The position numbers and the translations under genes were made by a program. Below are positions 10,934 through 46,238 of a stretch of 64,000 bases of DNA, piece by piece. This DNA comes from Desulforamulus reducens MI-1 (GTDB taxonomy: Bacteria; Bacillota; Desulfotomaculia; Desulfotomaculales; Desulfotomaculaceae), in the NCBI RefSeq assembly GCF_000016165.1, contig NC_009253.1:2987484-3051483 (forward strand), written 5' to 3'. The notes below the pieces were generated by a model. That model ran no database searches. It was given only the letters and a program-made list of their open reading frames with translations, and was not told where the DNA came from. Every line of letters starts with the position of its first letter. Position 1 is the first letter of the stretch.

Positions 10934-11419
10934 CTATCTCTTAAGTTTTTGAAATTTATCTTGGTAGCTGCCATCAACAATTTCTTTAAAGGCTTCAATA
11001 TAGTAGTGGCCCCGGTAGTAAACTAAATGCACACGCATTTTTTCTCCAGGTAACCTTGCTGCCACCGTAAGGATTGCTTCTCCGGTTTGTTTATCCGGTG
11101 AGAGTTTTACTTCATCCAGATAGAGATAAAGGGGCGTTAGGTATGGGTAACTTCTTTCCTTGGCAAAATTACGAGTAAAATCCTCTCGACTAATTTTTTC
11201 CCTTAATTGGGGGGTTAAGTAAAGGTAAATATCTCTGGGTCTATTATCATTGACGGCATCAATAAATTCCTGCACCCTATGGGTGGCTTGTCGCTCTCCG
11301 GGTAAAAAAGACCCAATGATCCAACCCACCATCAAGATGATAATCATGCATATCATCGTTCCCCGACTTTTGGTTAGCAGACCTTTAACAAAACTGTTCA
11401 AGAAAACCCCTCTTTCCAT
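10934..11419 (-). CDS. Membrane-anchored protein of unknown function, last gene of transporter operon
   Basis: 161 residues: an N-terminal signal-anchor (MICMIIILMVGWIIGSFLPG at about 22-41) and an extracytoplasmic domain (VQEFIDAVNDNRPRDIYLYLTPQLREKI, later RVHLVYYRGHYYIEAF). The alternating pattern resembles NTF2/DUF4878-like folds that follow lipoprotein anchors, but I do not recognise a family firmly. Its start codon abuts the stop of the upstream permease, so it is translated with the nucleoside transporter and may assist or modulate it. Confidence 0.7.
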   Translation of the reverse strand: MERGVFLNSFVKGLLTKSRGTMICMIIILMVGWIIGSFLPGERQATHRVQEFIDAVNDNRPRDIYLYLTPQLREKISREDFTRNFAKERSYPYLTPLYLYLDEVKLSPDKQTGEAILTVAARLPGEKMRVHLVYYRGHYYIEAFKEIVDGSYQDKFQKLKR

Positions 11420-12363
11420 TATCGTTCAGATCTGGAATAAGGAACTGTATATGCTGCAGGGAACTCAGCTTTTTTCGAAACACTTAAGAGAACAAGAATA
11501 GTTAAAATGTAGGGCAAGGCCAGTAAGAATTGGTGTGGCACCGGCATTCCCAATGCCTGCAGCCTAAGTTGCAAGGCGTTGGCACCACCAAAGAGCAGGG
11601 CTGCACCCAGGGCCCGGTAAGGGTTCCAACGGGCAAAGATCACAACGGCAACCGCAATAAATCCACGGCCTGCCACCATTTGATCTAAAAAAGTATTCAT
11701 AAAACCAATGGAGAGAAAGGCTCCACCCAGTCCCGCAAAGGCACCGCCAATCATCACACAAAGATAGCGCACCAACGGTACATTAATTCCCCGAGAATCG
11801 GCCGCCCGTGGATGCTCTCCAACGGCTCGAACGCTCAAACCAAAGGTTGTTTTTTCCATGACAATGTGGGTAACAATTACCAATATAAAAGCTAAATACA
11901 CCAAAATATTATGATTAAAAAACACAGGCCCCCAAAAAGGTAAATCCCCTAAAATTGGAATCTTTAGGGCAGGAAAGGCTTCAATTTGAGGGGGGAGTTT
12001 TTGTACCCCAAAAATACTGCGATATAAATAAGCTGAAAGACCCGTTCCCAATATGGTTAAGGCTGTGCCGGCAATCACTTGGTTTGCCTTGACAGTTACA
12101 CTTAAAAAGGCCATAATCAGGGAAAATAAAACACCAGTCAGGATGGCAATGAGAACCCCTACCCACAGATTGTCGGTAAAGTAGGTTCCCACAAAACCAC
12201 CCAGGGCTCCCATCAGCATTATTCCTTCTAAACCAAGATTCAGTATGCCGGCCCGCTGTGTAAAAATATCTCCCAAGGCAGTAAAAAGAATTGGCACACT
12301 GGTTCTAATGGCCCCCGCCAGTAGACTGATGAGAAAACCCTGGGTTAAAAGTTCTGTTTGCAT
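11419..12363 (-). CDS. nupQ: BMP/Nup-type nucleoside ABC transporter permease 2
   Basis: About 314 residues with 8-9 membrane helices; GILNLGLEGIMLMGALGGF near the start and GRGFIAVAVVIFARWNPYRALGAALLFG are typical of the YufQ/NupQ permeases of guanosine-type importers. I start at the ATG at 12363 because GGAGGGAC lies 8 nt ahead; the frame is open further upstream without a ribosome site. This start leaves a 59-bp overlap with the preceding permease gene. It pairs with the permease at 12305-13402. Confidence 0.9.
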   Translation of the reverse strand: MQTELLTQGFLISLLAGAIRTSVPILFTALGDIFTQRAGILNLGLEGIMLMGALGGFVGTYFTDNLWVGVLIAILTGVLFSLIMAFLSVTVKANQVIAGTALTILGTGLSAYLYRSIFGVQKLPPQIEAFPALKIPILGDLPFWGPVFFNHNILVYLAFILVIVTHIVMEKTTFGLSVRAVGEHPRAADSRGINVPLVRYLCVMIGGAFAGLGGAFLSIGFMNTFLDQMVAGRGFIAVAVVIFARWNPYRALGAALLFGGANALQLRLQALGMPVPHQFLLALPYILTILVLLSVSKKAEFPAAYTVPYSRSER

Positions 12364-13402
12364 GCCTGTCCCTCCATTGGGTGTAAACCACCCTACTAAT
12401 AACAAAGATAATGACTAGCCCTTCGATGACACTGACTAACGAAAAGGGTACTCCCACCATGCGCTGCATGGTGCTGCCGCCTACGATGAGAGCAGCAAAA
12501 AAGAACGATGAGATTCCAATCCCCAGTGGATTAAGATTGCCTAATAACGCCACCACAATGGCTAACATACCGTAACCGGAGTTAATATCATCCAATAAAC
12601 GATAATGGATGCCAAAAACCTCGGTCCAGCCGGCCACCCCGGCCAGACCAGAAGATATGAACATAATCAGAACAATGGTTTTAGATATCTTGATACCGCT
12701 ATATCGGGCCACATGATGCCCCTCCCCCATGAGTTTGATACGAAACCCGATGGTGGAACGCCAAAAGACATAGCCTGCGAAAATAATGAATACAGCAATA
12801 ATAATACCAAAGTGCAACCTGGTGCCACTTAGCAAAATAGGTAGTTTTAAGCTTTCTTGAATTAGTGGGGTTTGGGGAAAGCCATGGCCATTGGGATCTA
12901 TCATGGGACCACGCACCAGCCAGCCTAGTAAATAAACCGCCACGTAGTTCAGCATTAAGGTAGTAATCACTTCGTTGGCATTGAACTTAGCCCTAAATAC
13001 GCCAGCCAAACCACCCCACAGGGCCCCTCCCAGAAATGCTGCCAAAAAAGATAGGGGTAAAAGAATGGGAGCCGGCAGGGCGGAAAAGTTTAGGGCCACC
13101 AGCATCGCGAAGACAGTACCCAGGGTAAACTGCCCATCCCCACCAATGTTCCAAAGTTGACTTTTAAAGGCAATGGATGTACCTAGGGCCATAATCATCA
13201 GCGGTGTTGCCTTAACCAGGGTTTCGGCAATCCTGTTGGTGGAGCCAAAGGCACCCCAAAACAGCGTTTTAAAAGCTTCCAGGGGATCTTGCCCTGTGAA
13301 GAGCAAAAGTAGCGCCCCTACCAGCATCGCCAGTCCAATGGAAATGACAGGGGGTGCAATGCTCACCATGATATTCTTCAGAGAGGTTTTTCTGTTCAAC
13401 AT
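12305..13402 (-). CDS. nupP: BMP/Nup-type nucleoside ABC transporter permease 1
   Basis: 365 residues, about ten helices. LWNIGGDGQFTLGTVFAM and FRAKFNANEVITTLMLNYVAVYLLGWLV are signatures of the NupP/YufP permease. Its start overlaps the end of the ATPase gene by 7 bp, so translation is coupled. Together with the ATPase, second permease and lipoprotein it makes a nucleoside or purine importer. Confidence 0.92.
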   Translation of the reverse strand: MLNRKTSLKNIMVSIAPPVISIGLAMLVGALLLLFTGQDPLEAFKTLFWGAFGSTNRIAETLVKATPLMIMALGTSIAFKSQLWNIGGDGQFTLGTVFAMLVALNFSALPAPILLPLSFLAAFLGGALWGGLAGVFRAKFNANEVITTLMLNYVAVYLLGWLVRGPMIDPNGHGFPQTPLIQESLKLPILLSGTRLHFGIIIAVFIIFAGYVFWRSTIGFRIKLMGEGHHVARYSGIKISKTIVLIMFISSGLAGVAGWTEVFGIHYRLLDDINSGYGMLAIVVALLGNLNPLGIGISSFFFAALIVGGSTMQRMVGVPFSLVSVIEGLVIIFVISRVVYTQWRDRHANRTFNPGFSHQSTGGGH

Positions 13403-14928
13403 GCCGTCTTTTCCCCGCTTTCTACACCGGCCATCAGCATACCAATTTCCTCGATACTAACATTTTTGTTTTTAAGAATTCCTTTAATCCGGCCCTCATA
13501 AATAACAGCTATGCGGTCAGATATTTGGAGAAGTTCTTCCAAGTCTGCGGAAATTAATAGGATACTAACCCCTTTTTCTCTTTGTTCCAAAAGTTTTTCC
13601 CGGACATACATGGAGGCACCAATATCCAGCCCTCTGGTTGGTTGGTTGGCAATAATAACCCGGGGGGACGAACTAATTTCCCTGGCCAGAATAATTTTCT
13701 GTTGATTACCGCCTGAGAGGTCCTTTGCCTTTGCCTCTGGTCCACTGGCCTTAATGCGATACTCATTTAATAATTGTTGGGCATTGGCAGCAATGGCTTT
13801 AAAATTTAACAAGCCCCCGGTGGAAAAACGTGGACTCTGATATTCTTTGATAATTAAGTTGTTAGTTATATCAAAGCCCATTGCTAAACCGGTTTTATGA
13901 CGATCTTCCGGAATATGAGCAATTCCTTCCTTAATATATTCACTGGGATTTTTACCACTCAGGACCTGCCCATCCAATTGAATTTTTCCTGAAGTTAAAG
14001 GTCGTAATCCGGTAAGTACTTCACATAATTCCTTTTGACCATTTCCGTCCACACCAGCCAACCCTAATATTTCTCCGGCTCGGATATTAAAATTAACACA
14101 GTCTAATACCAGTAACTTATTTTCATTCTTTAGGGTAACATTATCAACAACCAGCCTTGTTTCCCCTGTGCAGTCAGGCCTTTCGTCAAAGCTTAACAAC
14201 ACTTCCCGCCCCACCATCATATTGGTTAAATCACTTTTGGTGGTTTGGTTAGTTATTTTTTCTCCTCCAACTTGGCAACCATCCCTTAATACGGTTACTT
14301 CATCGGCAATCTCTAATATTTCTTCTAATTTATGAGTAATAAGAATAATGGATTTTCCGTCGTCACGCATGAGCTTAAGAATTTTAAACAGCTCCGCTGT
14401 TTCCTGGGGTGTTAATACAGCGGTGGGCTCGTCCAGGATTAAAATATCGGCACCCCGATAAAGAACTGATAATATTTCCACCCTCTGTTGTTCCCCAACA
14501 GAGAGCTGTCTAATCTGGGCTTTGGGGTTCACCTTCAGGTTATATTTTTCTGATAGTTTTTTAAGAGAGTCCTCCACAGCCCCTTTGTCTAAAAAAATTC
14601 CCCTTTTAGCCGGTAACCCCAGCATAATGTTTTCCACCACAGTCATGGGTCTTACCAACATAAAATGCTGGTGTACCATGCCTATGCCTAAATTCATGGC
14701 CTGGGTAGGATTGTTTATGACCACCTCTGTGCCATTAATAAAAATTTGGCCTGCCTCTGGTTGATAAAGACCAAATAAAATATTCATGAGAGTTGTTTTA
14801 CCGGCTCCGTTTTCGCCAAGTAGTCCGTGGATAGATCCCTTGGCCAAGCGAAAATTCACCTGGTTATTGGCAATAACTCCCTTAAATCCTTTGGTGATCC
14901 CCTTCATTTCCACCGCGTATGATTGCAA
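13396..14928 (-). CDS. nupO: BMP/Nup-type ABC transporter ATPase (two nucleotide-binding domains)
   Basis: 510 residues with two ABC cassettes: Walker A GENGAGKTTL (about 38), signature LSVGEQQRVEI and Walker B ILILDEPTAVL in the first; a degenerate second with GLAGVDGNGQKEL in place of a canonical P-loop and SGGNQQKIILARE. This duplicated layout with one weak site is normal for YufO/RbsA-type ATPases. It energises uptake of nucleosides by the two permeases that follow. Confidence 0.93.
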   Translation of the reverse strand: MQSYAVEMKGITKGFKGVIANNQVNFRLAKGSIHGLLGENGAGKTTLMNILFGLYQPEAGQIFINGTEVVINNPTQAMNLGIGMVHQHFMLVRPMTVVENIMLGLPAKRGIFLDKGAVEDSLKKLSEKYNLKVNPKAQIRQLSVGEQQRVEILSVLYRGADILILDEPTAVLTPQETAELFKILKLMRDDGKSIILITHKLEEILEIADEVTVLRDGCQVGGEKITNQTTKSDLTNMMVGREVLLSFDERPDCTGETRLVVDNVTLKNENKLLVLDCVNFNIRAGEILGLAGVDGNGQKELCEVLTGLRPLTSGKIQLDGQVLSGKNPSEYIKEGIAHIPEDRHKTGLAMGFDITNNLIIKEYQSPRFSTGGLLNFKAIAANAQQLLNEYRIKASGPEAKAKDLSGGNQQKIILAREISSSPRVIIANQPTRGLDIGASMYVREKLLEQREKGVSILLISADLEELLQISDRIAVIYEGRIKGILKNKNVSIEEIGMLMAGVESGEKTAC

Positions 14929-15011: not shown

Positions 15012-16040
15012 TTATTTTTCAAATTTAGGCATTTCCACTGTGTTATTGGCCAAGCCTTTCTTCACTTCTTCCAGTTTCGCTTTCACCTCTGCAGGAACGG
15101 TGCTATCTAAACCATGGAATGGAGCAACCGTTACACCACCATTGGCAGCGGTTAACCAGTAAAATTTCTTATCTCTGTTGGTAAAATTGTTGTTTAAAAT
15201 ATCGTCAACCATTTCTTTCACCACAGGAGTCCAGTTGTAGGCAATACCGGATAATACATTGTTGGGCGCCAGTACATTTTGATCAGCAACATTGCCCAAT
15301 ACTGTTTTGTTTTTTTCTTTCCCTGCATCCACGACACCCAAGCCAATGCCATCACCGGAGTGCCAAATTACATCGGCACCGGCATCATACATGGAAATGG
15401 CCCCTTCTTTGGCCTTGGCAGCATCCCGCCAGTCTCCGGTGTAAAGTTCCTGAATTTGAATATCGGGATTAACCTGCTTGGCAGCATGTTTAAAGGCTTC
15501 GTGGCCACGGTAGATTTCTGCCACATCAGCGCCGCCCACTACACCAATTTTATTGGTCTTGGTCATGAGGCCGGCCAGGGTTCCCATCAGGTAGCCACCG
15601 TCCTCCAGCTTAACATCATAGACACAGGTATTGGGAAGGGTCTTAAATCCTGTTCCCAGGGCAAATTTGGTTTCGGGATACTCTTGGGCCACTTTGATAA
15701 TGGGCTCCATAAATTGGAAACCATGACCAATGATCAAATCATAGCCCTGGGAAGCAAAGTCCCTCAGGGTTGGTTCAATGTTAGATACTTCGTATACTTG
15801 TTCTGTGTAGGTCACTTCAATTTTACCGGCATATTCCTTTTCTAGAGCCTTTACACCTTCATACATAGCCTGATTCCAAGAGACATCATCGATCTTGCCC
15901 GGCAGAATCAAAGCAACTTTCAGGGGTTTTTTCCCGTCCTCTTTACCCCCTTGGGTTGCTTTTTCTTCTTTGTTGCCACACCCTGCCAGCAACAAACTCA
16001 TCATTAACAGGGCCACCAGCAAAAGTCTTGCTTTCTTCAT
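15012..16040 (-). CDS. nupN: BMP-family nucleoside-binding lipoprotein
   Basis: 342 residues; lipobox LMMSLLLAGCG with the modified Cys near residue 21, then the BMP/PnrA fold: VALILPGKIDDVSWNQAMYEG, YDLIIGHGFQF, KIGVVGGADVAEIYRGHEAF, DVIWHSGDGIGLGV. PnrA-type proteins bind purine nucleosides between two lobes. It is the first transporter gene after the hydroxylase subunit at 16127, so import and purine breakdown or salvage are linked in one transcript that begins at the riboswitch-controlled ade promoter. Confidence 0.92.
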   Translation of the reverse strand: MKKARLLLVALLMMSLLLAGCGNKEEKATQGGKEDGKKPLKVALILPGKIDDVSWNQAMYEGVKALEKEYAGKIEVTYTEQVYEVSNIEPTLRDFASQGYDLIIGHGFQFMEPIIKVAQEYPETKFALGTGFKTLPNTCVYDVKLEDGGYLMGTLAGLMTKTNKIGVVGGADVAEIYRGHEAFKHAAKQVNPDIQIQELYTGDWRDAAKAKEGAISMYDAGADVIWHSGDGIGLGVVDAGKEKNKTVLGNVADQNVLAPNNVLSGIAYNWTPVVKEMVDDILNNNFTNRDKKFYWLTAANGGVTVAPFHGLDSTVPAEVKAKLEEVKKGLANNTVEMPKFEK

Positions 16041-16126: not shown

Positions 16127-18217
16127 CTATTGAGCTATTCTTTCACGGGATACCGGCAACTCATTGATGGAAATATCCACAACTTCGTTTATGGCAGCAG
16201 TAATGGCCGGTGCAATGGCTACCGTTCCTACTTCTGCAGCACCCTTTAACCCCATTGGACCAGAATCTTCGTACTCATTAACGGTAGCTGTCTCCATATC
16301 CGCTAGGTCCAGGCTTGTGGGTATCAAGTAGGTGGATAAATTGGTCTGGTTAGGTACGCCATGGGTAAAATCCATTTGCTCCAGCAAGGTATAACCGACA
16401 CCCATGGCCACGCCGCCTTGTATTTGCCCTTCCAAAGCCATGGGGTTTATAATCTGTCCGGCCTCTGTGACCGCAAAAACCTGTAGGAGTTGCACTTCAC
16501 CTGTCAAGGGATTCACTTTTACCTTGGCTGCCTGGGCAATGAAGGTATACATGCAATGGGGTAGGCCAATTCCTAAGTCCGGCTGAGACACTTCCGGGAA
16601 TACGGCCTCTCCGATACCCTTCTGTCCCGTTTCTGCTTGCCTTTGCAAATCCGCCACCGCTGCCAATAGGGCATTGCCAGAGATATAGGTGGTTCGGGAA
16701 GCAGCAGTGGAGCCACTGTCATGGGTAAGTCCCGTATCTCCCATAACAATTTGGATCTTCTCTGGTGAAACACCCAGGGCCTGGGCTGCCAGTTGCACGA
16801 AAGCAGTAGTGCTTCCCTGTCCGATCTCCACCGTACCTATTTTTATTTCATAGAAACCCCCGGGCAGTCGTTCAATTTCGACCTTTGCTGTATCCTTTAT
16901 ACCCTTTCCCATACCGCAGCTAAGAAAGCCTGCGGCCATACCATATCCAATGTTTGGTTCCTCATTGTACAATCTCTCTTGCCATAGGTCTGACTTTTCT
17001 AGGATCTGCAGGGCTTCCCTTAGACCAACGGAATGGTTCATGGGCTGACCCAGACTCCCCTCTGCTCCTTTATACAAGGCATTCTTTATTCGAAGCTGCA
17101 CCGGGTCTAACTGGAGCTGTTTAGCTGCCCTGTTCAACAGTGTTTCTGTGGCAAAGGCCGTTTGTGGGGCACCAAACCCACGCATGGCACTGGCAGGAGG
17201 CTTGTTGGTATAGCATAAATAACCGTCGATTTGTACATTGGGAATCACATAGGGTCCCGCAGCATGTTCCACACCAAGTCCCACAACCGCAGGGCCTAGG
17301 GCTGCATAGGCCCCGGTATCGTAATAAACTTTCCCCTGGTAAGCGGTGATAAGCCCTTCCTTGGTGAACCCTAGCCTTACCTTAACCTTTGCAGCATGTC
17401 TTTTATAAGAGGCCATGAGCGATTCCTCCCGGGTAAACACCAGACGGGCCGGCAGCCCTGTTTTCCAGGTGACCAGGGCCAGGAACAACTGAACGGTATT
17501 ACCATCTTTACCCCCAAAGCCCCCACCAATATTTGGTGTTCTAACTCGTATTTTCTCCTGAGGAATGTCCAAACAACGGGCAATCTCCTGCTGATCGTAA
17601 AAGGGGTTTTGAGTGCCGGCAATAATATTCAAAACACCGTTTTCATCTAGGAAAGAAACACCTGACTCCGGTTCTAAATACAGGTGATCCACCACCGGTA
17701 CAGTAAAGGTATCTTCCAGGGTAAGGTGACTCCCTGCGAAGGCCCTTTCCGTATCCCCTTTGTAGAAGGGAATATGCTGCAATAGATTGCCCTGACCGTG
17801 AATCAAGGGGCTGCCTGCTTGGATAGCTTCTTCAGGCTCCTTGACCACATCCACGGTTTCATAGTCAATATGAACCAGCTGTGCATATTCACTGGCTAAG
17901 GTCGACGTTTTAGCCGCCACCACCGCAATTGGTTCTCCGAAAAACCGTACCCGTTCTTCAGCCAGTACAGGCTGATCCTTGACAATTTGACCAAAGTTAT
18001 TGACCTCGATATCCTTGGCTGTGAAACAATAGGCATCTTGCAGGTTAGTGAATGCACCTATATCAATTTTTGATATTTTGGCATGGGCCTGTGTTGAACG
18101 AACTAGTTTAAGGTGCAGCATCCCAGGAAGATAATAGTCACTGGCATAAAGGGCCTCACCTGTCACTTTACTTTTTGCATCCACACGAGGGATTGAAGTT
18201 CCGACCACACCAGGCAT
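16127..18217 (-). CDS. Xanthine dehydrogenase-type molybdopterin subunit (set 1)
   Basis: 696 residues. I start at the ATG at 18217 (AGGGGG 8 nt upstream); the frame continues further upstream into the end of ade without a ribosome site. Molybdopterin-binding features are GGGFGGKDGN, AMRGFGAPQ, EIGQGSTTAF and, near the C-terminus, GPMGLKGAAEVG with the catalytic-type Glu (K-G-A-A-E). It should combine with the FAD (20472) and 2Fe-2S (21327) subunits encoded upstream, with ade between them. Purine oxidation is inferred from the neighbours; the substrate could be another aromatic heterocycle. Confidence 0.88.
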   Translation of the reverse strand: MPGVVGTSIPRVDAKSKVTGEALYASDYYLPGMLHLKLVRSTQAHAKISKIDIGAFTNLQDAYCFTAKDIEVNNFGQIVKDQPVLAEERVRFFGEPIAVVAAKTSTLASEYAQLVHIDYETVDVVKEPEEAIQAGSPLIHGQGNLLQHIPFYKGDTERAFAGSHLTLEDTFTVPVVDHLYLEPESGVSFLDENGVLNIIAGTQNPFYDQQEIARCLDIPQEKIRVRTPNIGGGFGGKDGNTVQLFLALVTWKTGLPARLVFTREESLMASYKRHAAKVKVRLGFTKEGLITAYQGKVYYDTGAYAALGPAVVGLGVEHAAGPYVIPNVQIDGYLCYTNKPPASAMRGFGAPQTAFATETLLNRAAKQLQLDPVQLRIKNALYKGAEGSLGQPMNHSVGLREALQILEKSDLWQERLYNEEPNIGYGMAAGFLSCGMGKGIKDTAKVEIERLPGGFYEIKIGTVEIGQGSTTAFVQLAAQALGVSPEKIQIVMGDTGLTHDSGSTAASRTTYISGNALLAAVADLQRQAETGQKGIGEAVFPEVSQPDLGIGLPHCMYTFIAQAAKVKVNPLTGEVQLLQVFAVTEAGQIINPMALEGQIQGGVAMGVGYTLLEQMDFTHGVPNQTNLSTYLIPTSLDLADMETATVNEYEDSGPMGLKGAAEVGTVAIAPAITAAINEVVDISINELPVSRERIAQ

Positions 18218-18228
18218 TTTAAAACCCC

Positions 18229-19995
18229 CTATTCTGTTTCCACCACCGTGGGTATTATGCGGTGTTCTAATACATGAATTAAACCGCAATCTGTTAAGCC
18301 AAGCTCTGGCACTGTGGGTAAGGAGATAAAGGAAAGTGTCATGAAGGGAGCGGGTAAGTCACACCCTAGCTGCTCCGCCTTTTTATTTAATTGATCAATT
18401 TGTGACATTACTTGTTCAGCCGGCAAAGAACTCATCAGGCCACCAATGGGTAGGGGCAGTACCCCTATGACTTGGCCATTTTCCACAGCCACCAATCCTC
18501 CCTGATGTCGGGCAATTTCCCTGGCTGCCAGATCCATATCTTGGTCATTGGTTCCCACAATAACAATATTGTGATGGTCATGGGATACAGAGGAAGCCAA
18601 AGCCCCGGCCTTTAGCTTAAAACCTCTGACAAAGCCCACTCCAACGCTGCCATTTTTCCCGTATCGTTCAACTACAGCCAGCTTTAATATGTCTTCATTG
18701 GTATTAACTTGTACTTCTCCACCCGCAACATTTAGCCACTCCTGGCTGGCAAAATTAATAATTTGATCCGGATAAAGATTGATAACATTTACCTTGCACC
18801 TGTTCCCTTGGGACGGCAGGGCAAAGGAAGTCGGTGCTAAATTGGGTGGAAGCTTCACCGTTTCATTTAAGAATGCCGGATACTGACTAATTTCAATTTG
18901 CTGGGTTAATTTGCCACCCTGTGCCACCAGTTTACCGTTCTTAAATACATAAGCCGGTTTTATCTCTACCAAATCATCTAACAGTACAATATCTGCCACT
19001 TTCCCAGGGGTTAAAGCCCCAAGGTAATGGTCCAATCGAAAATGCTTGGCGGTATTAATGGTTGCCATTTGGATGGCCTTAATGGGATTTAACCCAAGGG
19101 CAATGGCCTTCTGAACATTAAAACTGATGTGACCCTCCCGGACGATATCATTTACATGCTTATCATCGGTACAAAAGATTAGATTTTCGGTGGACAGGTT
19201 CTGTTCGATGGCACCTTTCACCAGTGCCTCCACGTTTCTTTCGGTACTACCCTCCCTGACCAAGGCCTTAATTCCTAAACGCAGTCGCTCAAAGAGCTCC
19301 TGAAACACAACCGACTCGTGATCATCCGAAAGGCCAGCTGTGGCATAGACATTCAACTGATCCCAATTCAGCCCAATGGCATGTCCATTGGCCACTTTAC
19401 CGTTAGCCCGGGCACTGACAATTTTTGCCAAGTATTCTTCTTTGATCGATAAAATTTTAGAAGGATCTAATTCTCCTAGACTTGCCGAAATGTTGCTCTG
19501 TAAAAGTTGGTCCACTTCCTTAACCCCCAACACACCACCGGTGGTTTCCAGGCCGGGGGCGGTGGGCACCCGAGAAGGAACCTCTATATAAATTTGATAG
19601 GGCAAATTTTCCGTGTTATTTAGAAGGGCCTCTACTCCTTTCAGCCCTGCGACATTGGCAATTTCCATGGGATCCGCAAAGAGTGTCGTAGTGCCCCAGG
19701 GCACAATGACACTGGCAAGGGCTTCGGGCGACAACAAGGTAGGTTCAATATGTATGTGTGCATCCATAAAACCTGGCACAGCAAAGCGTCCTTTTCCGTC
19801 AAAGACCTCTTTGGCCTCAACCTCCCAGCCAGGATTGACCGCTACGATTTTGCCGTTCTTAATGACCAGAGAACCAGAGAAAATGGTTTCGGTATAAACA
19901 TCCACAATCTGTATATTTTTTATATACAAATCTGCTGGTTCCTGGCCGGCAGCCACTCTCAATTCCTCAGCTAAAGAAGCAACATCACCCAACAT
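18229..19995 (-). CDS. ade: Adenine deaminase
   Basis: 588 residues matching the AdeC family along its length: VPGFMDAHIHIEPTLLSPE carries the metal-binding HxH, VPWGTTTLFADPMEIANV, CTDDKHVNDIVREGH the Asp region, and a C-terminal domain with SSVSHDHHNIVIVG. It converts adenine to hypoxanthine, which can go to xanthine oxidation or to IMP through phosphoribosyl transfer. ATG preceded by GAGGTG. It is the first gene after the tandem riboswitch and terminator (20154-20374) and sits between subunit genes of hydroxylase set 1. Confidence 0.94.
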   Translation of the reverse strand: MLGDVASLAEELRVAAGQEPADLYIKNIQIVDVYTETIFSGSLVIKNGKIVAVNPGWEVEAKEVFDGKGRFAVPGFMDAHIHIEPTLLSPEALASVIVPWGTTTLFADPMEIANVAGLKGVEALLNNTENLPYQIYIEVPSRVPTAPGLETTGGVLGVKEVDQLLQSNISASLGELDPSKILSIKEEYLAKIVSARANGKVANGHAIGLNWDQLNVYATAGLSDDHESVVFQELFERLRLGIKALVREGSTERNVEALVKGAIEQNLSTENLIFCTDDKHVNDIVREGHISFNVQKAIALGLNPIKAIQMATINTAKHFRLDHYLGALTPGKVADIVLLDDLVEIKPAYVFKNGKLVAQGGKLTQQIEISQYPAFLNETVKLPPNLAPTSFALPSQGNRCKVNVINLYPDQIINFASQEWLNVAGGEVQVNTNEDILKLAVVERYGKNGSVGVGFVRGFKLKAGALASSVSHDHHNIVIVGTNDQDMDLAAREIARHQGGLVAVENGQVIGVLPLPIGGLMSSLPAEQVMSQIDQLNKKAEQLGCDLPAPFMTLSFISLPTVPELGLTDCGLIHVLEHRIIPTVVETE

Positions 19996-20153: not shown

Positions 20154-20218
20154 CATAAAAAAGCCCAGACAGGCAGATTTCATCCTCTAAAGAGTGAAAC
20201 CTGCCGCCTGGGCTTTTA
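20154..20218 (-). terminator. Regulated terminator (expression platform) before ade
   Basis: A long stem (AGCCCAGGCGGCAGGTTTCA against its partner) with an AGAG-containing loop, followed on the minus strand by a U-run. The 5' arm contains the AAAGCCC segment that belongs to the 3' side of the ykkC-type aptamer, so aptamer folding and terminator folding exclude each other. Between this terminator and ade (19996-20153) there is a further hairpin (TCAGAAA...TTTCTGA) with no recognised class. Confidence 0.85.
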
Positions 20219-20305
20219 TCCCTATCGGTGTAGCGCTAAAAACGCCTGTACCGCTCGGACCAAACCAAACCCAAAAGGAAGGGGTTGTGGAACCCTAGGT
20301 ACACT
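20208..20305 (-). ncRNA. ykkC-family riboswitch aptamer (ligand subclass unresolved, PRPP-type favoured)
   Basis: Read on the minus strand the segment has the family's hallmark blocks in order: GTACC-TAGGGTTCC, GGTCCGAGCGGTAC, ACACCGATAGGGATAAAAGCCC. GTACC pairs with GGTAC as expected for the first helix. Members of this superfamily sense guanidine, ppGpp, PRPP or nucleoside diphosphates. The guanine aptamer immediately 5' of it matches the known tandem guanine-PRPP design, which favours PRPP, and the purine genes downstream make guanidine less likely. Binding should free the message from the terminator (ON switch). Confidence 0.8.
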
Positions 20306-20311
20306 TTCCCT

Positions 20312-20374
20312 CCGTAGTCCGGCAATTACGGTTGCCTGGTAGAAACACTTGGGCCAATTCCCAAGCATATACGG
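20312..20374 (-). ncRNA. Guanine-class purine riboswitch aptamer (diverged)
   Basis: On the minus strand: P1 CCGTA/TACGG; P2 CTTGGG/CCCAAG with loop AATTGG; J2/3 containing TTTCTACC; P3 with loop CCGTAA; J3/1 GACTACGG. The loop-loop GG and CC pairing partners are present, and the specificity position is C (as in guanine riboswitches) rather than U. Differences from the consensus are 6-nt instead of 7-nt loops and TATG instead of TAAT in J1/2. It precedes the ykkC aptamer by 6 nt. Confidence 0.82.
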
Positions 20375-20394
20375 AAAACGATTCATTTATGTCC

Positions 20395-20424
20395 ATACTA
20401 GCAAAGACAGTTGACATTTGTCAA
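20395..20424 (-). promoter_or_regulatory. Promoter of the riboswitch-ade transcript
   Basis: TTGACA, an 18-bp spacer and TAGTAT on the minus strand place the start about 15 nt before the purine aptamer. This gives ade its own promoter inside a run of same-strand genes. On the plus strand the same area also reads TTGACA...TATAAT, but no gene would be served. Confidence 0.75.
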
Positions 20425-20471: not shown

Positions 20472-21323
20472 TTAGCACCTTTTATTAATACTCAAATCTT
20501 GTAATCCCTCATAAAGAAGTGCACCCACCATCTTCCGGCGATACTCCTGGGAAGCCCTTACATCGGAGATCGGACTGGTCTCGGCTCCGGCATCGGACAC
20601 CAAGGTCCAAAGTTCTTCGCCCCAAAGGCTGTAACGGGTTAAGTTTTGGGCAGTTCTTTTTAGCTCCATCACGGTTGGTCCTACTGAACCGCAGGCGATC
20701 CGGACATCTTCTAGGACCTGGTTGACCAATCTGGCCTTGAAGGCAACACTGACAATGGAAATGGCCATTGCCTTCCTTTGTCCTAGTTTTCGATAAAACC
20801 CGATCTGCTCTGGTTCCCAGCAGGGGATTTTAATGGCTGTCAGCAGTTCTCCCGGTTGAAGCACCGTTTTGCCCGGTCCGTTAATAAAATCCACGATGGA
20901 AACTTCCCTTTCGGAGTGGGCTGAGCGGAGAAGCAAGGTGGCATTGGAAACTACCAAGGCCGGCATGGTGTCCCCGGCCGGCGATGCAGTCACCAAATTA
21001 CCTCCTAAGGTACCCCTGTTACGAATCTGCAGGGAACCCACCTGGGAACAGGCAGCTGCTAATAAAGGAGCATATTGGCCAACCATACTGGATTCCACCA
21101 GTTCTTGGTGGGTCATTAGGGGGCCAATGATAAGCTGCCCCTGTTCTTTTCGGATAAATTTTAATTCCTGTAAATTATAAATATTTATTGCCCTGGAGGG
21201 ATTGATCTGGCCATTTTTCCGTTTCACCAGAAAATCAGTTCCCCCTGCCAGAATACTCTGGGAAGAATCCCTGTATAACTCCCCCAAGGCCTCTTCCAAA
21301 TGAACCGGCGTAATGACTTCCAT
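20472..21323 (-). CDS. Xanthine dehydrogenase-type FAD subunit (set 1)
   Basis: 283 residues of the medium-subunit CoxM family: SILAGGTDFLVKRKNG binds the FAD pyrophosphate, QIRNRGTLGGNLVTASPAGDT is the second flavin motif, and FYRKLGQRKAMAISIVSVAF is typical near the C-terminal half. It starts 3 bp after the stop of the 2Fe-2S gene. With that protein and the molybdenum subunit at 16127 it should form an alpha-beta-gamma hydroxylase passing electrons from purine to an acceptor. Confidence 0.92.
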   Translation of the reverse strand: MEVITPVHLEEALGELYRDSSQSILAGGTDFLVKRKNGQINPSRAINIYNLQELKFIRKEQGQLIIGPLMTHQELVESSMVGQYAPLLAAACSQVGSLQIRNRGTLGGNLVTASPAGDTMPALVVSNATLLLRSAHSEREVSIVDFINGPGKTVLQPGELLTAIKIPCWEPEQIGFYRKLGQRKAMAISIVSVAFKARLVNQVLEDVRIACGSVGPTVMELKRTAQNLTRYSLWGEELWTLVSDAGAETSPISDVRASQEYRRKMVGALLYEGLQDLSINKRC

Positions 21324-21326
21324 GTT

Positions 21327-21803
21327 TTAAACACCTCGTTCTTTAACAGATGCCGCTGCCCTTTGAATGGCATCCGCAATTTTAACATAGCCCGTACATC
21401 GGCAGAGATTACCGGCTATACTGTTTTTGATCTCCTGCCTAGTTGGGTTCAGGTTTTTCAAGAGCAGTGCTCTGGCTGACATGATCATGCCCGGTGTACA
21501 AAAACCGCATTGCACCGCTCCAGCTTCCATAAAGGCTGTCTGTAAATGGTCTAATACGCCATGGTTTGCCAGACCTTCAATGGTCTCAACATGAGAACCA
21601 TTTATTTGACTGGTTAGGACTAAGCAGGAGTTTACAGCTTTCCCATCCACAATGACGGTACAGGCACCACACTCACCCTGTCCACAGCCTTCCTTGGTAC
21701 CTGTTAAACCGAGATGTTGCCGTAGGGTTTCCAGCAGTGTGGTATCACTCCCTACCTCAACACGGGTGGGCTTCCCATTTAACTGAAAGGTATAAACCGG
21801 CAT
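21327..21803 (-). CDS. Xanthine dehydrogenase-type 2Fe-2S subunit (set 1)
   Basis: 158 residues; start at the ATG at 21803, with GGAGG 9 nt ahead (a TTG at 21818 sits on the ribosome site itself). Two cluster motifs are complete: GCGQGECGACTVIVDG with a downstream NSC, and CGFCTPGMIM...NLCRCTGY. It relays electrons from molybdopterin to FAD. First gene of the transcript from the promoter at 21938. Confidence 0.93.
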   Translation of the reverse strand: MPVYTFQLNGKPTRVEVGSDTTLLETLRQHLGLTGTKEGCGQGECGACTVIVDGKAVNSCLVLTSQINGSHVETIEGLANHGVLDHLQTAFMEAGAVQCGFCTPGMIMSARALLLKNLNPTRQEIKNSIAGNLCRCTGYVKIADAIQRAAASVKERGV

Positions 21804-21862
21804 TTCCTTGACCTCCAATTTGACTAAATATTATGATATAACAAAACAAATAAAAATCCCGT

Positions 21863-22005: not shown

Positions 22006-22159
22006 AATCAATAACCCTTGACATAGGGTGGTTAAAAAACAACCTGCCAGTGGCCACCAAGAAGGTATAGAAGCCCCTTGTTTTTTCTGGTAGAATAAAC
22101 TATCTTTTTTGTGTTGATGACAAATTTAAAATAAATTTATTCCTAAAGGGGTGGTTCAT

Positions 22160-22960
22160 TTGTTTACTATCGATCACTTGGTACAACCCCAGACGATCGA
22201 GGAAGCATACCAAATATTGCATGAACATGCAAGTAATACCGTCCTTGGGGGCAGTGCCTATTTACGGTTGGGCTCAAAAAAAATCCGTACCGCCATTGAT
22301 TTAGCAAACCTTCAGCTTGATTCTATCAAAGAACAGGATAACCAATTTGTAATTGGCGCAATGGTTACCTTTCGAGATCTTGAAACTCACCCTGCTTTAA
22401 AGACTTACTTTAATGGCATGCTTCCCCAGTCAGTTAGAAACATTATTGGTGTACAATTTAGAAATGTTGTTACAGTAGGCGCCACCGTCTACTCAAAATA
22501 TGGTTTTTCAGACTTACTCACAGCTTTACTGGCCCTGGATACCGAAGTTGAACTGCATCAAGGCGGCAGAATGCCCTTAGCAAACTTCTTGGCAAAACCC
22601 TATCCCAAAGATATCCTGACCCGCATCTTTATTCAAAAAAATAACCGACAGGCAGTTTATCAAGATTTAAGAAATTCCAAAAGCGATTATCCTATTCTTA
22701 ATACAGCGGTTTCCTGTCTGGAAAACCAATGGAGAATTGTTGTAGGTGCCAGACCACTAAAGGCCGCCATCGCTGTGGCAGCCTCCCAAGAACTTTCCGG
22801 CAAGGCTACCCTAAGCCCGGCAGATATTAAAAATGCTGCTCAAAAAGCTGCAGAGGAATTATCCTTCGGCACCAATCTCAGGGGGACAGCGGAATACCGG
22901 CAAGCCATGTGCAGTGTGTTGGTCAATAGAGCCATTACGGAGGTTGAAGCATGCAAATAG
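22160..22960 (+). CDS. Molybdenum hydroxylase FAD subunit (set 2)
   Basis: 266 residues; TTG start at 22160 fits the ribosome site AGGGGTGG, whereas a GTG at 22151 overlaps it. CoxM-type fold with SVRNIIGVQFRNVVTVGATVYSK and a C-terminal LRGTAEYRQAM. The usual AGGTDL FAD loop reads TVLGGSAYLRLG, an atypical variant, so flavin binding may be weak. It overlaps the next gene by 10 bp. The order FAD, 2Fe-2S, molybdenum subunit forms a complete second enzyme, divergent from set 1. Confidence 0.85.
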   Translation: MFTIDHLVQPQTIEEAYQILHEHASNTVLGGSAYLRLGSKKIRTAIDLANLQLDSIKEQDNQFVIGAMVTFRDLETHPALKTYFNGMLPQSVRNIIGVQFRNVVTVGATVYSKYGFSDLLTALLALDTEVELHQGGRMPLANFLAKPYPKDILTRIFIQKNNRQAVYQDLRNSKSDYPILNTAVSCLENQWRIVVGARPLKAAIAVAASQELSGKATLSPADIKNAAQKAAEELSFGTNLRGTAEYRQAMCSVLVNRAITEVEACK

Positions 22961-23400
22961 AAACTATTTTAAATAATCAAAGGGTTACCTTAGAAATAGT
23001 ACCGGATGAAATGTTGGCAGATACCCTGAGAAGATATGGTTTGTTAAGTGTAAGACAGGGCTGTGATACCTCCTGTTGCGGTCTGTGTACGGTATGGATC
23101 GACGGAAAACCCACCCTGTCCTGCTCAACCTTAGCCTATCGGGTCAGTGGCAAACGGGTTACCACCATTGAGGGAGTACAAGGGGAAGCCGAGGAGTTTG
23201 CCCAGATGCTGGTGGCTGAAGGGGCCGAACAATGCGGTTTCTGTAGCCCCGGTTTCATTTTGACTGTGCTGGCCATGAAGCATGAACTCAAAAACCCCAC
23301 TGAAGAACAAATTATTCACTATCTAACGGGTAATCTATGCCGGTGTACCGGCTATATGGGACAGCTAAGGGCCATTAAGAAGTATCTGGGGGTGGAGTAA
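22951..23400 (+). CDS. Molybdenum hydroxylase 2Fe-2S subunit (set 2)
   Basis: 149 residues. The plant-type cluster motif is GCDTSCCGLCTVWIDG, a double-Cys variant of the common CGxGxCGAC, and the second cluster has CGFCSPGF...NLCRCTGY. Its stop codon TAA directly abuts the ATG of the next gene. Function as electron relay between molybdopterin and FAD follows from the family. Confidence 0.92.
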   Translation: MQIETILNNQRVTLEIVPDEMLADTLRRYGLLSVRQGCDTSCCGLCTVWIDGKPTLSCSTLAYRVSGKRVTTIEGVQGEAEEFAQMLVAEGAEQCGFCSPGFILTVLAMKHELKNPTEEQIIHYLTGNLCRCTGYMGQLRAIKKYLGVE

Positions 23401-25674
23401 ATGAGGGTCGTTGGAAAGGGGATTGCAAAGATCGATGGGTTATCCATCGCCACGGGTAAACCTGCTTATACAGAGGATCTGGCCGCCGCCAATGCTCTGG
23501 TAATCAAAATTCTACGCAGTCCACATGCCTTTGCTAAAATTAAAACCATTGATACAGCCGAGGCAAAAAAACTAGCCGGGGTTGTCTGCATACTAACCCA
23601 TAAGGATGTTCCCAAGGTCAGATTTACCCTGGCCGGACAGTCCTATCCCGAGCCTTCCCCCTATGACCGATTGATCCTAGATGAGCTGGTTCGATACGTA
23701 GGGGATGAAGTGGCCATTATCGCCGCTGTCAATGAAAAAATTGCCTTACAGGCCCGGGATTTAATCAAAGTTGAATATGAGGTATTGGAACCGGTCTTGG
23801 ATTTTGAAACAGCAACGGAACATCCCTCCATGGTCCATCCGGAGGATGACCTATTCTGTAACTTTGATACTGGTTTGATCAAGGAAAAAAATATTGCCTC
23901 ATCCCAGAAAGTAGAATATGGCAACGTTGAGGAAGCCTTTGAGCAATGTGCTGTGGTGGTGGAAGAAACCTATTATACCCAGGCCCAGGCCCATGCCATG
24001 ATGGAAACTTACCGGGCCTATAGTTATTTAGATCCGGCGGGAAGACTGGTGGTGGTCAGTTCCACCCAGATCCCTTTTCATGTAAGACGTCAACTGGCCC
24101 GGGCTCTGCAAATCCCTGCCAGCCGAATTCGAGTTATTAAACCCCGTATCGGGGGCGGGTTTGGCGGTAAGCAAACCACCGTAGCAGAAATTTTCCCGGC
24201 CCTGGTTACCTTAAAAACCGGTAAACCAGCCAAAATTATCTATGACAGAAGGGAAACCTTTACTTGCTCCAGCTGCCGACATGCCATGCGCATTAAGGTT
24301 CGCCTAGGGGCTGATGCAGATGGAACCATCCGGGCCATCGATATTGATGCCTTATCCGATACCGGGGCTTATGGAGAACATGCATCTACGGTTGTTTCAC
24401 TGGTGGGCGAAAAGACACTGCCCCTTTATAACAAAACAAAGGCTTTGCGCTTTGTGGCCCATGCGGTATACACTAACAAAATGAATGCCGGGGCATTGCG
24501 GGGCTTTGGGGCCACCCAGGGAACCTTTGCTGTTGAGAGCACTGTCAATAAACTGGCCGAGGCACTTAAGATGGATCCCTCGGAAATTCGGCTGCAAAAC
24601 CTGATCAAAGCAGGGGAAACCTGCCTACCCTACGAGGGCAAACTTTTAGGAAGCTCTAGCCTGCATCGGTGTATCCAACGGGGCAAAGAACTGATTGGCT
24701 GGCAGGAAAAGTACCCTGGGAAGGATCTGGGCAATAAAGTGCGCGCCGTTGGGATGGCAGTAACCATGCAGGGCTCCGGCATTGCCGGTATTGACACGGC
24801 CTCTGCCGAAATTAGACTGCAGGATGATGGCAATTATACACTGCTTATCGGTTCCACCGATTTGGGGACCGGCAGTGATACCATCCTGGCTCAAATGGCT
24901 GCAGAGGTTCTGGAAACCCCATTGGAAAATATTGCTGTTTATGCAGCAGATACCGACGTTTCCCCCTATGACCCGGGGTCCTATGCCTCCAGCACAACCT
25001 ATGTCACTGGTATGGCTGTTGTTAAGGCCGCCGAAGATTTACGTCAGCAAATCTTGCAAAGGGGTGCTAAATTCCTAGAGAGTATCCCCGAAGAAGTGGA
25101 GTTTGACGGAAAAATCATTACAACCTTGGATGGAACAAAAAACATCGGGTTAGAAAAATTAGCCTATCTTTCCGTCTTGGGTGCAGGCAAATGCCAGCTG
25201 GTGGGCCACGGCACCCATGGTAGTAACGTTTCTCCCCCACCCTTTATCGCAGGCTTTGCCGAGGTGGAAGTGGATAAAGAAACCGGCCAGGTTAATTTAG
25301 TCGATTACGTGGCAATGGTGGACTGTGGTACGGTGGTAAACCCCAATTTAGCTAGAATTCAGGTGGAGGGCGGCGTGGTGCAGGGTATTGGTCTAGCCCT
25401 TTATGAGGATGTAAGGTACGATCAAAAAGGGAACCTCTTAACCAATTCCTTTATGCAGTATAAAATTCCCTGCCGCAAAGATATCGGCAATATTACTGTG
25501 GGCTTTGAAGAAAGCTTTGAACCCACCGGTCCCTTTGGGGCAAAATCCATCGGAGAAGTGGTTATTAACACACCGGCCCCGGCCATTGCCCATGCCGTTT
25601 ATAACGCCGTGGGGGTTCGCATCACCAAGCTTCCCATCACACCGGAAAAGGTATACATGGGAATGTACAAATAA
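23401..25674 (+). CDS. Molybdenum hydroxylase molybdopterin subunit (set 2)
   Basis: 757 residues, full length for the family. Motifs: RIGGGFGGKQTT, ALRGFGATQGTFAVES, DLGTGSDTILAQMAAE, and near the C-terminus GPFGAKSIGEVVINTPAPAIAHAV with the catalytic Glu (GAKSIGE). The KSIGE form and the CCGLC partner suggest a substrate range different from set 1, for example nicotinate- or purine-type heterocycles, but the sequence does not decide it. Ends at a strong terminator. Confidence 0.9.
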   Translation: MRVVGKGIAKIDGLSIATGKPAYTEDLAAANALVIKILRSPHAFAKIKTIDTAEAKKLAGVVCILTHKDVPKVRFTLAGQSYPEPSPYDRLILDELVRYVGDEVAIIAAVNEKIALQARDLIKVEYEVLEPVLDFETATEHPSMVHPEDDLFCNFDTGLIKEKNIASSQKVEYGNVEEAFEQCAVVVEETYYTQAQAHAMMETYRAYSYLDPAGRLVVVSSTQIPFHVRRQLARALQIPASRIRVIKPRIGGGFGGKQTTVAEIFPALVTLKTGKPAKIIYDRRETFTCSSCRHAMRIKVRLGADADGTIRAIDIDALSDTGAYGEHASTVVSLVGEKTLPLYNKTKALRFVAHAVYTNKMNAGALRGFGATQGTFAVESTVNKLAEALKMDPSEIRLQNLIKAGETCLPYEGKLLGSSSLHRCIQRGKELIGWQEKYPGKDLGNKVRAVGMAVTMQGSGIAGIDTASAEIRLQDDGNYTLLIGSTDLGTGSDTILAQMAAEVLETPLENIAVYAADTDVSPYDPGSYASSTTYVTGMAVVKAAEDLRQQILQRGAKFLESIPEEVEFDGKIITTLDGTKNIGLEKLAYLSVLGAGKCQLVGHGTHGSNVSPPPFIAGFAEVEVDKETGQVNLVDYVAMVDCGTVVNPNLARIQVEGGVVQGIGLALYEDVRYDQKGNLLTNSFMQYKIPCRKDIGNITVGFEESFEPTGPFGAKSIGEVVINTPAPAIAHAVYNAVGVRITKLPITPEKVYMGMYK

Positions 25675-46066: not shown

Positions 46067-46087
46067 ATTTCATAACTTATTAAAACA

Positions 46088-46228
46088 GGCCGAATCTCCG
46101 GAAATTCCGGAGTACGGGGGACAAAAATTAATGGGGTGAATCCGTAACTTTTTCGGAGGTGCAAAAAAGTACGGTAGGGTGCCCTCAACCCGAACCCGTC
46201 AGCTAACCTCGAAGGCCAGAGGAGGGTA
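46088..46228 (+). ncRNA. c-di-AMP riboswitch (ydaO/yuaA class)
   Basis: Hallmark blocks in order: TACGGGGGAC, ATGGGGTGAATCC, GTAGGGTGCC, AACCCGAACCCGTCAGCT and AACCTCGAAGGC. The class binds two c-di-AMP molecules and switches off cell-wall and potassium genes. The 3' end runs into the ribosome site GGAGGG of the LysM hydrolase, a usual target, so expression should fall when c-di-AMP is high. Confidence 0.93.
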
Positions 46229-46238
46229 AAAAGTACAT

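Follow-up and report, generated by a model that had tools for sequence, protein, structure and literature searches.

The leader upstream of the adenine deaminase gene ade, in the 64,000-nt stretch of Desulforamulus reducens MI-1 DNA that we analyzed (the window), very probably forms a tandem guanine-PRPP riboswitch of a known RNA class that acts as an IMPLY gate, and controls transcription of an operon for adenine deamination, a molybdenum (Mo) hydroxylase and nucleoside import. This reading is drawn from the sequence, which holds two aptamers 5 nt apart, each with all of its ligand-contact residues, together with a promoter and a terminator in competition with the P3 and P0 helices of the second aptamer (Table 1). 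The RNA class is known, and its target set is under-described.

Table 1. Features of the riboswitch leader and its gene neighborhood (window coordinates).
Feature	Position	Strand	Details
Promoter	20395..20424	-	-35 TTGACA 20419-20424; 18-nt spacer; extended -10 TGCTAGTAT, TAGTAT 20395-20400
Guanine aptamer, P1 to P1	20309..20377	-	contacts U22=20369, U47=20345, U51=20341, C74=20317
PRPP aptamer (ykkC subtype 2b; assignment almost certain)	20194..20310	-	P0 = 20305-20308 with 20196-20199; C75=20230; G96=20208; position 49 = C, 20253
Intrinsic terminator	20157..20217	-	-37.9 kcal/mol, z -7.9; 0/200 shuffles equally stable
ade, adenine deaminase, first operon gene	18229..19995	-	TIGR01178 515.5 bits, cut-off 472.5
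Mo-cofactor large subunit, xanthine-dehydrogenase-family hydroxylase	16127..18289	-	PF02738, PF20256, PF01315
BMP/PnrA-like substrate-binding lipoprotein	15012..16040	-	PF02608
ABC transporter ATPase	13396..14928	-	PF00005
ABC permease	12305..13402	-	PF02653
ABC permease	11419..12405	-	PF02653
FAD subunit of Mo hydroxylase, upstream of switch	20472..21323	-	PF00941, PF03450
2Fe-2S subunit of Mo hydroxylase, upstream of switch	21327..21818	-	PF01799, PF00111

Read along the minus strand, the leader comprises the promoter, the purine aptamer, the ykkC aptamer and one terminator, followed by the ade start codon at 19995. A preliminary description of this DNA had proposed one promoter and a single terminator that shares its 5′ arm with the second aptamer; both elements were found. 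A TTGAC-16/18-TAnnnT promoter match occupies the equivalent position in 27 of 28 tandems from the window's taxonomic class. The 5′ arm of the terminator, AAAAGCCCAGGCGGCAGGUUUCA, holds the 3′ strands of P3 and P0 together with G96 and G104/G105; therefore, the PRPP-bound fold and the terminator would be mutually exclusive. Relatives carry equivalent terminator hairpins with base changes on both arms. No separate terminator was found between the two aptamers, and the sole earlier match to a terminator-like consensus was a 5-bp hairpin inside the PRPP aptamer.

The two aptamers are arranged as in characterized tandems. The guanine aptamer lies directly 5′ of the PRPP aptamer, the P1 stems are separated by 5 nt (alignment positions 84-88 in the row of the window; 5-7 nt in published guanine-PRPP tandems), and one shared terminator overlaps the PRPP aptamer. 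The guanine P1 and P0 are adjacent, with position 83 as the last P1 base and position 84 as the first P0 base, and an additional U14-G84 pair would overlap P0. We aligned 45 tandems from named genomes and the window's own genome on a structure drawn from published folds. Standard pairs filled 91.3% of 2060 pair cells, compared with 78.2% after shuffling, and two-sided changes occurred in 31 of 47 pairs (shuffled mean 23; none of 500 shuffles reached that count). When the pairing partners were slid, 28-50% of pairs were standard. The P1 of the purine aptamer scored low (70.8% standard pairs), to which misaligned gaps close to its base probably contributed. The earlier proposal of a guanine aptamer in tandem with a ykkC-family aptamer thus agrees with the model matches (RF00167, 74.3 bits; our PRPP-aptamer model R1, 101.1 bits) and the 5-nt spacing. 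It had located both aptamers correctly and drawn them slightly short: the purine P1 spans 20377-20309, and the ykkC aptamer reaches 20196 owing to P0.

Decaying copies of such elements do exist, with remnants before an ade paralog in two genomes (G051 and G058), and the gate in the window could in principle be a decayed or silent duplicate as well. However, its promoter, terminator and two aptamer cores show no damage, and compared with sister copies the terminator has changed on both arms with pairing kept, which makes decay scarcely credible. Two decaying PRPP aptamers, at L239:2353-2464 (-) and L241:2388-2477 (-), scored 58.8 and 22.3 bits and have broken CUAGGG and GGUCC motifs. Each is followed by an ade paralog and, further downstream, by the azgA-pur tandem, and no purine aptamer was detected before either of them.

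The first aptamer matched the Rfam purine model RF00167 at 20394-20295 (-) with 74.3 bits (gathering cut-off 37; E 2.5e-11, whole window searched). U22, U51 and C74, described as the guanine contacts in a 2022 paper on riboswitch variants, are present in the window, and together with U47 they are kept in 45/45 aligned tandems; covariation was seen in P2 and P3. The preliminary description had suggested that the ligand may differ, as loops L2 and L3 are 6 nt each and J1/2 reads UAUAU rather than UAUAA. A shift to xanthine, hypoxanthine or 2′-deoxyguanosine would also suit an operon whose targets include ade and a Mo hydroxylase. However, loop sizes (6-9 nt) and J1/2 vary among the 45 tandems that share this core, U24 of J1/2 occurs in 11 of them, and a copy heading an azgA-pur operon (L003) has J1/2 and loops like those of the window. 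Moreover, J2/3 of the window (GUUUCUACC) lacks the insertion by which the same paper marks xanthine-II riboswitches. We therefore rejected the loops and J1/2 as signs of an altered ligand, and a purine other than guanine is very unlikely.

For the second aptamer, the ykkC-family assignment made earlier was upheld, and G96 together with the pyrimidine at position 49 allowed a narrower one. From its residues, the ligand is almost certainly PRPP and not ppGpp or guanidine. The sole Rfam family match was to RF00442 at 20309-20203 (-), with 59.0 bits and an E value of 4.8e-10 in a 501-nt stretch, below the gathering score of 63; the covariance search put forward in the preliminary description was thus carried out with one aptamer above its cut-off and the other below. 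RF00442 is curated as guanidine-I and cannot separate ykkC subtypes 2a and 2b. The name of this family is what speaks for a guanidine-I riboswitch. In addition to the subthreshold score, the C at position 49 (A in guanidine-I), the conserved P0 strands, which guanidine-I lacks, and the purine gene context all argue against guanidine, and we consider that reading virtually negligible. Model R1, built here, gave 101.1 bits at 20310-20194 (-); the window itself was among the 42 rows used to train it and the training on tandem sequences favors the scores of similar RNAs, and the tally of G96 below rests on residues.

The window has all residues that mark the PRPP subclass, G96 foremost. Pairing of G96 with C75 is the rule for the PRPP subtype, and the G96A change was measured to switch the ligand to ppGpp (PMC6031431). 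In the window, G96 stands opposite C75, and C75, C77 and G96 are invariant in the 45 tandems. The spacer reads GCCC-A-G-G-C-G-G, compared with GCCC-G95-G96-G97-A-G-G in T. mathranii (from published primers). The P0 helix was paired in 95.5% of cells over the 45 tandems, mostly as conserved pairs, with two-sided changes in 1 of 4 pairs. We ran R1, with its 42 PRPP aptamers, over 113 genomes of the window's class and examined the best 90 elements (at least 76 bits) with their flanks, calling genes by BLAST against cluster representatives whose families were checked and reading position 96 by counting the spacer between CCC and GG. G occupied position 96 in 65/65 elements linked to purine genes. 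All 22 elements before ilvE, ilvD or ilvB had A (18) or a missing residue (4), and 3 of the 90 had no callable gene context. An alignment-column reading of G at this position in 5 ilv elements was overturned, as the spacer count gave A or a missing residue. The consensus structures of subtypes 2a and 2b barely differ, and a 2a aptamer would make the leader a guanine-ppGpp gate. However, such an aptamer would not have G at position 96, and one element before ilvE shows the ppGpp signature without a purine aptamer, which leaves ppGpp a highly improbable ligand in the window. We assigned PRPP because G96 tracks purine operons (65/65) and not ilv operons (0/22). That ilvE-linked element, L035:3481-3935 (-) of Desulfofundulus australicus, consists of a T-box and, behind it, a ykkC element whose position 96 is A.

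The operon behind the switch was predicted earlier to encode ade, a Mo hydroxylase and nucleoside import, and family matches (TIGR01178, PF02738, PF02608) agree with this. Xanthine dehydrogenase models matched the hydroxylase below their cut-offs, giving it a family-level assignment, and the ORF of its large subunit probably starts too far upstream. Specific NCBIfam models likewise matched the BMP transporter only below cut-off; nucleoside import is probable, with the substrate read at family level. Four species of the genus (G000, G051, G052 and G058) have the ade operon behind the tandem. In G000, G051 and G058 the switch is directly preceded by the genes for the Fe-S and FAD subunits, and in G052, a 72%-complete genome, other genes are found there. 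In a tree built from the leaders of 28 tandems, the ade copies from three species grouped weakly (support 0.32). We found nothing resembling a terminator on the minus strand from the FAD gene to the promoter. Therefore, transcripts may read through from the upstream genes, and the switch would also filter them. A second, divergent Mo-hydroxylase operon with FAD, Fe-S and Mo subunits, read from ORF translations only, lies beside the first at 22151-25674 (+).

Overall, we propose a mechanism that follows the characterized relatives. PRPP binding would lock P0 and P3 and block the terminator, turning the operon on. Guanine binding would stabilize its own P1 beside the 5′ strand of P0, weaken the PRPP aptamer and favor the terminator, turning the operon off, and PRPP would override guanine. 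The preliminary description had the operon open at high PRPP and low guanine. This was not borne out, as the logic measured for the guanine-PRPP tandem is IMPLY, off only at high guanine and low PRPP. Surplus PRPP would then keep the operon on in every case, and only abundant guanine together with scarce PRPP would shut it. Nucleoside import, adenine deamination and possibly hypoxanthine oxidation would run when PRPP can convert bases to nucleotides: adenine would be deaminated to hypoxanthine, which may be oxidized onward to xanthine, and phosphoribosyltransferases would join the resulting bases to PRPP. Tentatively, the gate may mainly control purine scavenging rather than de novo synthesis, sitting in this genus inside a xanthine-dehydrogenase-type operon and gating the Mo subunit but not the upstream Fe-S and FAD subunits; we hold this reading somewhat less probable than its opposite.

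Three tandems were found in the window's own genome, a single contig of 3,608,104 bases. In addition to the one in the window, one heads azgA-purE-purB-purC-purS-purL (L161) and one heads BMP-ABC ATPase-permease-permease-xpt (L140). Since the same switch precedes these operons, we infer that a single gate governs base uptake, salvage and de novo synthesis alike in this genome. The genome also has one singlet purine aptamer, before another NCS2 permease. The operon in the window (ade, Mo hydroxylase, BMP-ABC) departs from the association with de novo purine genes. However, gene context describes the RNA class and does not define it, and the sister copy L161 heads azgA-purEBC.

Sherlock et al. 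(2018; PMC5912903) described 127 guanine-PRPP tandems, including those of B. megaterium codA and T. mathranii. The window shares their order of aptamers, 5-nt P1 spacing, terminator overlapping the PRPP aptamer and all contact residues. In contrast to the targets named in the papers we consulted, which are codA and the de novo genes leading to IMP, its targets are ade, the Mo hydroxylase and BMP-ABC import, and its switch lies between Mo-hydroxylase subunit genes. Singlet PRPP riboswitches (subtype 2b; H. modesticaldum purB) have the same G96 and use P3 and P0 as antiterminator, but carry no guanine aptamer in front and precede purE, purB or azgA operons in the window's class. Singlet guanine riboswitches (RF00167) share the aptamer core and targets in purine uptake and salvage, but have their own expression platform. 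The ppGpp riboswitches (subtype 2a) share the scaffold with P0, but lack G96 and precede ilv operons in that class. A 2022 review repeats IMP production as the target of the tandem. The 2022 variants paper reports guanine-I riboswitches before XPRTase genes in Paenibacillus, and the words "tandem" and "PRPP" occur there only where ligand variants are listed and in the title of a reference. No account of salvage targets was found in the open literature, with subscription papers and supplements outside our reach. The earlier suggestion that a salvage target sets this locus apart from published accounts therefore stands.

The window's case is not unique. A DNA pattern for the tandem, written from the copies of its own genome, returned 97 stretches from 84,980 named species genomes, with relatives such as Desulforamulus putei and D. 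aeronauticus among those scanned. We excluded L035, a T-box with a ppGpp-type element before ilv, and L046, a singlet before ABC genes, leaving 95 matches, 84 with a callable first gene. That gene was xpt in 32 tandems, pbuX in 12 (one behind a short uncalled ORF), a BMP gene in 5 and ade in 1. An azgA-type NCS2 permease came first without pur genes in 7 and headed pur genes in 7, and de novo pur genes came first in 20. Thus, 57/84 tandems precede genes for salvage or uptake and show no pur gene within the stretch covered; this share is biased, as Paenibacillus and its relatives dominate the xpt group and the pattern derives from own copies; the stretches often end early, and clusters were checked by few representatives. 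Salvage and import genes hence stand behind guanine-PRPP tandems in many Bacillota. A plasmid search gave one partial match, in an unannotated record.

In the literature, the two-input gate is explained as keeping adenine-nucleotide synthesis going in starvation. If the gate also heads operons for base uptake, phosphoribosyltransferases and deaminases, here more often than pur operons, a simpler reading would be that it adjusts all routes to purine nucleotides that consume PRPP to the PRPP supply. A known two-input RNA switch before genes for purine import and recycling, in this and many other bacteria, would have a wider range of control than was thought.

Several further observations concern neighboring elements. 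In 6/6 genus genomes with the BMP-type tandem (L140, at G000:C1:2376751-2383212, L139, L143, L147, L149 and L156), an antisense gene for a cold-shock protein separates the terminator of that tandem from bmp; no such gene was found at four BMP tandems from a different family. This gene and the riboswitch point toward each other, and in G000 the gene ends right beside the terminator of the riboswitch. At L238 (2387-2488 and 3017-3099, both minus strand), a singlet purine aptamer (96 bits) precedes an NCS2 permease, with a c-di-GMP-I aptamer approximately 500 bases upstream on the same strand. The window itself holds a c-di-AMP riboswitch at 46078-46231 (+), matched by RF00379 with 88.7 bits.
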